Source of the DNA: Thermoplasmatales archaeon SW_10_69_26
GTDB lineage: Archaea > Thermoplasmatota > SW-10-69-26
Assembly: GCA_003009755.1 (NCBI GenBank)
Contig: PXUB01000031.1
Span: 1 to 28,904 of the forward strand
DNA length: 28,904 nucleotides
Reading direction: 5' to 3'
The translations under genes and the position numbers were made by a program. The notes below the pieces were generated by a model. That model made no database searches, had not been told where the DNA came from, and saw only the letters and a program-made list of their open reading frames with translations. Each line of letters starts with the position of its first letter. Positions within the stretch are counted from its first letter, which is position 1. Shown here one piece after another: positions 10,503-28,904 of this stretch.

Positions 10503-10639
10503 GCTGTCGGGACCGGCGGGGTCGGCTGGGCCTGCTTGGGGTCGCCCTCGCGGACCCGACGGGTTTTTCGTGGGGGAGCCCGGCTGGCGGGCCCGTGGTC
10601 GCAGGCACGTCGACCTCCGAGCCGACGAGGGCCGAGAGC

Positions 10640-11367
10640 GTGGGCGCCGTCGTCGAGCTCGTCCGCCCCGGCAACGTCGTCATGGCGGGCGTGGGCGCGA
10701 TCGTTGGGGCCCTCGTCGCTGCCGGTCCCGGCGCCTGGCTCAGCGTGGCCGCCGCCGCGCTGGCGACCGCGCTCGTGACGGCCGGCGGCAACGCGGTGAA
10801 CGACGTCACCGATCGCCGGATCGACGAGCGCGCCCACCCGGGACGACCGATCCCCTCGGGGCGGTTGTCGGCCAAGGCGGCCAGCGCGATCGCGGCCGCG
10901 GCCTTCGCCCTCGCGTTGGGGCTGGCCGCCGGGGTGTCGTGGCCGCTGGTGGCCGTCGTCGCGGCGGCCCAAGTCCTGTTGATCGGGTACGAGGGCCTGT
11001 GGAAGGCCCGTGGGTTGGTCGGCAACGTCGTGGTCGCGAGCCTCGTGGGGGCGACGTTCGTCGCCGGCGCGGTGGCCGTCGGCCGCGTGACGCCGCCCGT
11101 GGGCTTTTTAGCTGGCTTGGCCTTCTTGGCGAACGTGGCTCGGGAAGTCTGGGGTTGGCGAGCGCGTTGACGCTCGGCGCCGTCGGGCTCTCCGTGCTGG
11201 CCTTGCTGGTCGAGTTCGGCGGCTGGGTGTTCGCTCTCGTCGTCGGCCTCGCCGATGCCGTGTTCCTGGCGGCCGTGTTCGCCCAGACCCCGGCCCGGGC
11301 CCAACGGCTGTCCAAGCGAGCCATGCTGGCCGCCCTGGTCGCTTTCGCCCTTGGTGGAACGCTATGA
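10640..11367 (+). pseudogene. Digeranylgeranylglyceryl phosphate synthase (UbiA family), internally deleted and frameshifted
   Basis: UbiA enzymes of this type add the second geranylgeranyl chain to GGGP in archaeal lipid synthesis. The first frame (GTG 10640, or GTG 10595) gives LVRPGN near the start and the first Asp motif, NDVTDRRID, followed by HPGRPIPSGRLS. It is readable through FLANVAREV (about 11150) and then stops at TGA 11168-11170. The second frame resumes at about 11153 with LASALTLGAVG and runs to RAQRLSKRAMLAALVAFALGG, the normal C-terminus, ending at 11365-11367. The expected segment 'xKDxEDxEGD...Tlp...G' between them is absent, so roughly 30 residues with the second catalytic Asp motif are lost together with the frame. 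The stop overlaps the GGGP synthase ATG (ATGA). It is either a pseudogene or an assembly deletion. Confidence 0.82.
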
Positions 11368-12107
11368 CCGTCTGGTCCGAGCTCACGCGCGATCGAGACA
11401 ACCGCCCGCTGCACGCCACGTTGATCGACCCCGCCTCGACCCCGGGTGAGGAGGCTCGCCCGATCGCCGAGGCCGCCGCCGACGCCGGCAGCGACCTGTT
11501 CCTGCTCGGCGGGTCCACGGACGTCTCCAAGTCCGACGTCCAGGAGTGTGTGGAGGCGATCGAGGAGGTGGCCGAGGTGCCCGTGTTCCTGTTCCCCTCC
11601 GGGTCCGACCAGTTCGCGCCCGGTCTCGACGGTCTGTTGTTCACGCTGACGGTGAACTCGACGCGGCCCGAGCTCATCGTCGAGGAGCCGGCCAAGGGGG
11701 CGACCCCGGTCCGCAAGTCGGGCCTGGAGGCCGTGACGACGGCCTACGTGATCGTCGAGCCCGGCATGACGGTCGGCGAGGTCGCCGAGGCCAACCTCGT
11801 CACGCGCGACATCGAGGGCTGCCAGCGCGCCGCCCGGTATGCATCCCTGGCCGACGTGCTCGGCCTCGACGCGATCTACCTCGAGGCCGGCAGCGGCGCG
11901 CCCGATCCCGTGCCCGAGGACATGATCGAGGCCGCCGCCGAGCCCGACGTCCCCATGATCGTCGGGGGCGGCATCCGTTCGCCCGAGGCCGCCGCCGAGG
12001 CGGCCCGCGCGGGAGCAGACCTGATCGTGACGGGCACGCTGGCCGAGGACGGGGACCTCGAGGAGCTCGAGGCCCTCATCGAGCGGCTGGGCAAGGTACA
12101 GGGTTGA
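11364..12107 (+). CDS. Geranylgeranylglyceryl phosphate synthase
   Basis: This TIM-barrel enzyme joins geranylgeranyl diphosphate to sn-glycerol-1-phosphate, the first committed step of archaeal ether lipids. The 247 residues include HATLIDPAST (17-26), AGSDLFLLGGS (41-51), PVFLFPSG (73-80), the active-site strand YLEAGSGAP (172-180), VGGGIRS (200-206) and ADLIVTGT (218-225), the last two forming the phosphate site. Its length and motifs fit the longer group II form rather than the short haloarchaeal one. The ATG overlaps the stop of the broken ubiA gene, so both belonged to one translationally coupled unit. The next two steps of the pathway are therefore adjacent. Confidence 0.95.
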   Translation: MTVWSELTRDRDNRPLHATLIDPASTPGEEARPIAEAAADAGSDLFLLGGSTDVSKSDVQECVEAIEEVAEVPVFLFPSGSDQFAPGLDGLLFTLTVNSTRPELIVEEPAKGATPVRKSGLEAVTTAYVIVEPGMTVGEVAEANLVTRDIEGCQRAARYASLADVLGLDAIYLEAGSGAPDPVPEDMIEAAAEPDVPMIVGGGIRSPEAAAEAARAGADLIVTGTLAEDGDLEELEALIERLGKVQG

Positions 12108-12152: not shown

Positions 12153-12193
12153 TCATACACCTAAGTATGAGGAACTCATATTGTTGAGTATGA
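12153..12193 (+). promoter_or_regulatory. Tandem palindromic operator over the antitoxin promoter and start codon
   Basis: Two copies of the inverted repeat TCATA-N8-TATGA occur at 12153-12170 and 12176-12193, exactly 23 bases apart; the second includes the ATG at 12190. The inner arms also form the perfect palindrome TATGAG-GAA-CTCATA (12166-12180). The likely TATA element (CCTAAGTATG) is inside the first copy. AbrB-type antitoxins bind such repeats to repress their own operon. This layout would block both transcription start and ribosome access. Confidence 0.7.
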
Positions 12194-12459
12194 TCGACCT
12201 CGAGGCGAAGGTCGGCGCTCGGGGCCAGGCCGTGATCCCGAAGCCGATCCGAGACCAGATGGGCATCCAACCGGGGGACCAGGTCTCGTTCCGCATCGAG
12301 GACGGACGGATCGTCGTCGAGAAGGTCGACCCCGACGAGCTGTTGGACGAGTTCCTCTCAGCCTACGAGAAACGCCAGCTCCCCGAGGACGTCGACTGGG
12401 ATCGCGAGCATGGGTCCCAGTACGACCAGCGCTTCGATCGCGCCCGTCAGGAGGACTGA
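12190..12459 (+). CDS. AbrB/SpoVT-type antitoxin
   Basis: The 89-residue product has an N-terminal swapped-hairpin AbrB domain: VGARGQAVIPKPIRDQMGIQPGDQVSFRIEDGRIVVEKV. The C-terminal acidic part (about 45-89), with DELLDEFLSAYEK and Asp/Arg-rich ends, likely wraps the toxin. It is the partner of the PIN protein 2 bases downstream, so the pair is a VapBC-type toxin-antitoxin module. The ATG at 12190 is preferred over TTG codons at 12181/12184 because it matches the family start and lies at the edge of the palindromic operator. Binding of that operator by the antitoxin, alone or with the toxin, is inferred. Confidence 0.88.
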   Translation: MIDLEAKVGARGQAVIPKPIRDQMGIQPGDQVSFRIEDGRIVVEKVDPDELLDEFLSAYEKRQLPEDVDWDREHGSQYDQRFDRARQED

Positions 12460-12461
12460 CG

Positions 12462-12878
12462 GTGCGCTACTTGGATGCGAACGTGTTCGTGTTCGCGGTC
12501 CTCGACGAAGGACCCCGCGGCGAGAGAGCCCGCGCGCTCCTACGAAAGGTCGTCGGAGAGGATGGCCGAGCTGCAACGTCCACGCTTGCGATCGACGAGG
12601 TCGTCTGGAGCCTCCAGGGCGAAGGGCCACGCGATGTCGCGATCCAGGAGGGCCAGCGCCTGATGGACTTGCCCAACCTGGAGGTGTTCGATGTCACCGC
12701 CGAGGACACGTTCGATGCTCTGAGTTTGATGGAGGACGAGGACACGCTGGATCCACGAGACGCGATCCACGCCGCCGTCGCCATCAACCACGGCATCTTC
12801 ACCGTCGTCTCCGACGATCCCGACCTCGACGGTCTGCCCGACGTGGAACGTCAGGGACTCGTGGAGACGGCCAATTGA
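12462..12878 (+). CDS. vapC: PIN-domain ribonuclease toxin (VapC family)
   Basis: PIN toxins cleave RNA and stop growth unless held by the antitoxin. The 138-residue product has the conserved acids: D5 in YLDANVF, E46 in AIDEVVW, D100 in DPRDAIHAAVAINHG and D118/D119 in VVSDDPDLDG. All are present, so the toxin is probably active. The start is GTG 12462, 2 bases after the antitoxin stop, with GGAGG 7 bases upstream. The pair forms a two-gene operon. The RNA target cannot be read from sequence. Its codon use does not differ obviously from its neighbours, but such modules move often. Confidence 0.92.
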   Translation: MRYLDANVFVFAVLDEGPRGERARALLRKVVGEDGRAATSTLAIDEVVWSLQGEGPRDVAIQEGQRLMDLPNLEVFDVTAEDTFDALSLMEDEDTLDPRDAIHAAVAINHGIFTVVSDDPDLDGLPDVERQGLVETAN

Positions 12879-28107: not shown

Positions 28108-28904
28108 GTGTTCCCGCTGCCCTCCGACGAGGACATCGCTTCCACCATCGAAGAACTCGCCCGGAAGCTCGACGACGTTGACGAAGACGAGATCCGCGAG
28201 GAGTTGCAACGCTACCTCGATCACGGGGTCCCCTTGCACCAAGCCAAGCGCGACCTCGAGCAGACCCTACCCCAGCAAAGCTCCGAGGCTGGGGGGTCCA
28301 CGGAACCGTCACCGACCGAGGACAAGCAGATCGGCGAGATCGGTATCGACGACGAGAACGTGAACGTGCGCGCCAAGGTCCTGTCCGTGACCGAGCGCGA
28401 GGTGACCGCCCGCGGCGAGGAGAAGACGATCTGGTCCGGCGAGCTCGGTGACGAGACCGGCGTCGTCGACTACACCTCCTGGCGCAACCTCGACATCGAG
28501 CCCGGCCAGGTGCTCGAGATCGAGGACGCCTACGTGACCGAGTGGCGGGACGCCCCCCAGATCAACGTCGGCGACCACGCCCAGGTCACCGAGATCGCCG
28601 ACGACATCGAGGTGCCCGCCGACGCCCGCACGCCCTCGACCTCCGACGCCGATGTCGGCGACCTCGAGGCCGGCATGAGCGCGGTGTCGGTGACCGGGCG
28701 CGTGCTGTCGAAGGACAGCCGCGAGGTCACCGTCCGCGGCGACCCCCAGACCCTCTGGGAAGGCGAGATCGCCGACGAGAGCGGCCGTATCCCCTACACC
28801 GCGTGGGAGGACTTCGACTTCGCCGAAGGCGACATCCTCACCATCGACAACGCCTACGTCCGCAGCTTCCGCGGCCTGCCCCAGCTCAACTTCGGCGACA
28901 ACGC
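28108..28904 (+). CDS. Replication protein A-type single-stranded-DNA-binding protein, cut by window edge
   Basis: RPA binds single-stranded DNA in replication and repair. The visible 265 residues begin with a helical domain (about 8-52, DIASTIEELARKLDDVDEDEIREE and a following VPLHQAKRDLEQ), typical of euryarchaeal RPA. An acidic linker leads to two OB folds: about 78-165 (VNVRAKVLSVTEREVTARG, WSGELGDETGVVDYTSW, IEDAYVTEWRDAPQINVGD) and 186-265 (VSVTGRVLSKDSREVTVRG, WEGEIADESGRIPYTAW, IDNAYVRSFRGLPQLNFGD). The near-equal wording shows a tandem duplication. Further folds and perhaps a zinc finger should lie beyond the edge. The start is GTG 28108, the first in-frame start before the helical domain; GGAGG at 28084-28088 is too far to be certain. 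Confidence 0.9.
   Translation, partial: MFPLPSDEDIASTIEELARKLDDVDEDEIREELQRYLDHGVPLHQAKRDLEQTLPQQSSEAGGSTEPSPTEDKQIGEIGIDDENVNVRAKVLSVTEREVTARGEEKTIWSGELGDETGVVDYTSWRNLDIEPGQVLEIEDAYVTEWRDAPQINVGDHAQVTEIADDIEVPADARTPSTSDADVGDLEAGMSAVSVTGRVLSKDSREVTVRGDPQTLWEGEIADESGRIPYTAWEDFDFAEGDILTIDNAYVRSFRGLPQLNFGDN

Follow-up and report, generated by a model that had tools for sequence, protein, structure and literature searches.

DGGGP synthase, a member of the UbiA superfamily (NCBIfam PRK12882, Pfam PF01040; described example MjDGGGPS, PDB 6M31), attaches the second ether-linked chain; its product is the core diether of the archaeal membrane (PMC9385802). Changes of the Asp residues of its second Asp motif are reported to cause strong or near-total loss of activity in MjDGGGPS (reviewed in PMC9385802), and the same was seen for AfUbiA and EcMenA (PMC4106721).

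The window, i.e. the whole stretch of 28,904 nucleotides that was analysed, belongs to a 2.8 Mb metagenome-type draft (49 contigs) of a high-GC Thermoplasmatota archaeon. Directly 5′ of the GGGP synthase gene it carries a UbiA-family DGGGP synthase gene split over two frames of the plus strand. The N-terminal part (10595–11170; its start codon is uncertain, GTG at 10595 being one candidate) runs in one frame to AREV (11149), including FLANVAREV, and ends in WGWRAR at a TGA (11168–11170). The C-terminal part (11143–11367; GSLGLASALTLGAVG...) is intact and open in a different frame from 11143 to the TGA at 11365–11367, with LASALTL read from 11155. The two frames overlap from 11143 to 11170, and no single open reading frame spans the gene.

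The N-terminal half matched positions 4–153 of the 250 of Pfam UbiA (E = 4e-26) and positions 3–176 of PRK12882 (E = 2.5e-39); the C-terminal half matched PRK12882 positions 204–276 (E = 3.8e-9). Both halves are therefore collinear on the profile of the geranylgeranylglycerol-phosphate geranylgeranyltransferases, with neither alone reaching the whole-protein cut-off of 296 bits. These matches bear out the assignment to the ubiA family of lipid enzymes, proposed earlier in a sequence-only reading of this DNA. The gene shares further features with the DGGGP synthases: the first Asp motif, NDxxDxxxD, is present as NDVTDRRID in the N-terminal half and aligns with that of relatives; the Tyr/Lys motif is present; and the gene adjoins GGGP synthase, as it does in the class genomes G003, G004 and G006.

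What sets the gene apart from the family is a missing segment together with the loss of frame in the assembly. Some 27 PRK12882 positions, the second Asp motif among them, are absent between the two halves, and in an alignment with 18 relatives 27–28 residues separate REV from the residues matching LASA. In the relatives this segment reads KDxxDxxxD...RTLP...G, i.e. the second Asp motif followed by the RTLP...G stretch; KDxxDxxxD was found in no frame at the assembled junction (GAAGTC followed by TGGGG, 11144–11155). As 5 bases (TGGGG) are kept in the window between the REV and LASA codons, ∼76–79 bases, corresponding to the 27–28 codons, are missing, slightly fewer than the 85–90 estimated in the sequence-only reading. 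Both 76 and 79 leave a remainder of 1 on division by 3, which accounts for the frame change. The same reading had noticed the absence of the second Asp motif and the loss of frame at one point, and on both counts it was right.

With the motif missing and the frame lost, what the assembly shows is a DGGGP synthase gene that is broken, not a working member of the family. Since the Asp residues are needed in MjDGGGPS, AfUbiA and EcMenA, no functional enzyme would be expected from the assembled sequence. The overlap of the two frames (11143–11170) might suggest recoding, with ribosomal frameshifting fusing the halves into one working protein; we regard this as extremely improbable. Frameshifting cannot supply 27–28 missing residues with the second Asp motif, needed in MjDGGGPS and EcMenA, which excludes recoding as the source of a working enzyme, and DNA folding at the junction is unremarkable (fold z-score 0.84).

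Two imperfect copies of TTGGCGAxCG had been described as flanking the junction. The pair does exist (TTGGCGAACG and TTGGCGAGCG, plus strand, 11126–11164; copies at 11126 and 11155, 29 bases apart), but its frequency is ordinary, a 10-mer near-repeat being present in 36 of the 642 45-base tiles of the window. Deletion mediated by this repeat was considered and rejected: such near-repeats are common and both copies survive, so the endpoints of a deletion are not marked by them. A hairpin at the junction was rejected as well, given the DNA fold z-score above and an inverted repeat of only 6 bases nearby.

Nearly all relatives keep the segment: in 104 of 109 loci a motif pattern was matched in the same frame; three more loci were full length (278–290 residues) and fell outside the pattern, and the remaining two come from a single contig that breaks off ahead of the motif. 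The lesion seen in the window was not shared by any relative. Within the class (seven genomes, the window's draft included) G004 and G006 carry an unbroken DGGGP synthase gene. The G005 contig stops right at the second Asp motif (G005:C235:13371, L175), and in G003 the frame is broken by a duplication of 35 bases next to a long palindrome rich in GC (L172, G003:C51, 4509–4567). The G001 contig starts inside GGGP synthase, and no DGGGP synthase was found in that genome; G002 (98% complete) has CarS and G1P dehydrogenase, but GGGP synthase and DGGGP synthase were both not found there, through either an assembly gap or a real loss. Thus, the gene pair is disturbed in five of the seven class drafts, the window's included, and each break is different, so that the lesion is not an inherited one. 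A locus that is hard to assemble in high-GC genomes, or plain incompleteness of drafts, would fit this pattern.

In a survey for broken genes in the draft (G000), open frames from relatives in the class were set against 1.19 Mb of its 2.82 Mb, ∼166 places in all. Two further clean frame breaks were found, a rough rate of ∼1–2 broken genes per ∼166 places; the sensitivity behind this rate was limited, as the known ubiA break was not recovered and some genes were shadowed by antisense frames, and several of the pairs that it flagged resemble boundaries between genes or antisense frames. One of the two breaks is in a CysRS gene (L210, G000:C4, ∼15900, minus strand), split over two frames with, as we read the junction, ∼5 bases missing; its parts are 81% and 84% identical to the intact ortholog (L304) in G001, a genome of the same family. 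A second CysRS-like gene, of a different subgroup, lies on C32, so CysRS activity may not depend on the C4 gene. The other break is in a gene for an LVIVD-type secreted protein (L211, G000:C5, 18961–18970), where the frame changes and ∼19 codons (∼55 bases) are missing in comparison with G002.

Paired-read scaffolding usually leaves N runs of varying length. Five such runs, of 12, 30, 64, 125 and 154 bases, were found in 822 kb of scaffolds, and from them we infer that the draft was made from short reads. The 64-base run lies directly after the window (G000:C31:28905–28968, the window ending at 28904) and is inside a gene. We observed that the protein matches on either side of this run overlap by ∼29 residues; the length of the gap, or the join itself, looks wrong there.

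Taken together, these observations make it very probable that the break in the DGGGP synthase gene is an assembly artefact, the case that the sequence-only reading had named as the one that would refute its claim. Codon-position bias is strong and undecayed to either side of the junction, and the draft has intact genes for GGGP synthase and CarS; both facts favour an artefact. So do the differing disturbances of this gene pair in other class drafts, the absence of the lesion from all relatives, the other short frame-breaking losses (CysRS, LVIVD-type) and the N runs, which show that this draft does contain unread gaps comparable in size to the stretch lost from ubiA. The locus would then be that of a normal archaeal DGGGP synthase gene sharing its operon with GGGP synthase, and ∼76–79 bases of it were dropped at one point of the draft. 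Probably the assembler or scaffolder merged two contig ends over a short unread gap, a false join that silently closed one gap of N-run size; reads would be expected to restore the segment. The organism itself most likely carries an unbroken gene, its product a predicted membrane enzyme that would add the second geranylgeranyl chain to GGGP, with Mg presumably held by the two Asp motifs. The clean break in undecayed coding sequence, accompanied by similarly broken genes and small N gaps of variable length, resembles what silent gap closure or small misassembly produces in drafts.

Some weight against an artefact comes from the small size and limited sensitivity of the survey; real pseudogenes may look fresh too, and the absence of G1P dehydrogenase from the bin might point to a pathway in real decay. 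One could suppose that the sampled population has recently undergone a real deletion, giving a fresh pseudogene either in all cells or in the strain followed by the assembly; were it in all cells, the enzyme's place would have to be filled by another enzyme or by another type of lipid. The sharpness of the break, with both flanks well kept, would agree with such a deletion, as would the lack of a second DGGGP synthase and of G1P dehydrogenase in the bin. Still, the missing segment is kept in nearly all relatives, GGGP synthase and CarS are intact with the operon overlap retained, the enzyme's product is the core diether of archaeal membranes (PMC9385802), and short frame-breaking losses occur in further genes of the draft, a CysRS gene included. 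On balance we consider a real deletion unlikely; the claim that the organism itself had lost the gene finds no support, given the short frame-breaking deletions elsewhere in the draft and its N gaps of similar size.

The search of the genome for a second UbiA, suggested in the sequence-only reading, was run and returned three other UbiA genes, none of them a DGGGP synthase by family models. One, a heme O synthase by a match above the cut-off, is a fusion with a COX15-like part, one is a MenA-like protein, and one, a PRK12875 match above the cut-off, is a prenyltransferase beside carotenoid-type genes. From their presence one could suppose that the DGGGP synthase gene no longer functions at all and that one of the three has taken over its role. 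Their matches point to those other families, however, and several UbiA genes besides DGGGP synthase are present in other class genomes too; a takeover of this kind seems highly improbable. An intact, near-identical copy was sought by a DNA search of 60 relatives, which gave only short weak matches, and by two contig scans, of which the first gave nothing and the second only distant relatives (30–49% identity).

An ortholog of G1P dehydrogenase was not found anywhere in the bin. The gene next to it in G001, leuD, is likewise without a close match in the bin (38%), which suggests a missing contig as the simpler cause of the absence. That a Thermoplasmatota archaeon has truly lost DGGGP synthase, and G1P dehydrogenase perhaps as well, yet retains GGGP synthase and CarS and builds its membrane by another enzyme or without the standard diether, is quite improbable in our view. 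A true case of an archaeon that does without this second ether-lipid prenyltransferase would matter for the lipid divide that separates archaea from bacteria. An assembly artefact being the preferred reading, claims of gene loss made from this draft and from the class, including those on lipid genes and CysRS, need to be checked against reads.

No RNA families or tRNAs were found in the window. GGGP synthase (11364–12107, plus strand) is intact, and its ATG at 11364 overlaps the ubiA stop codon (ATGA), so the coupling of the two genes described earlier was confirmed. Directly 3′ of GGGP synthase, at 12181–12878 of the window, we observed a pair of genes for an AbrB/MazE-type antitoxin and a PIN-domain (VapC-type) toxin.
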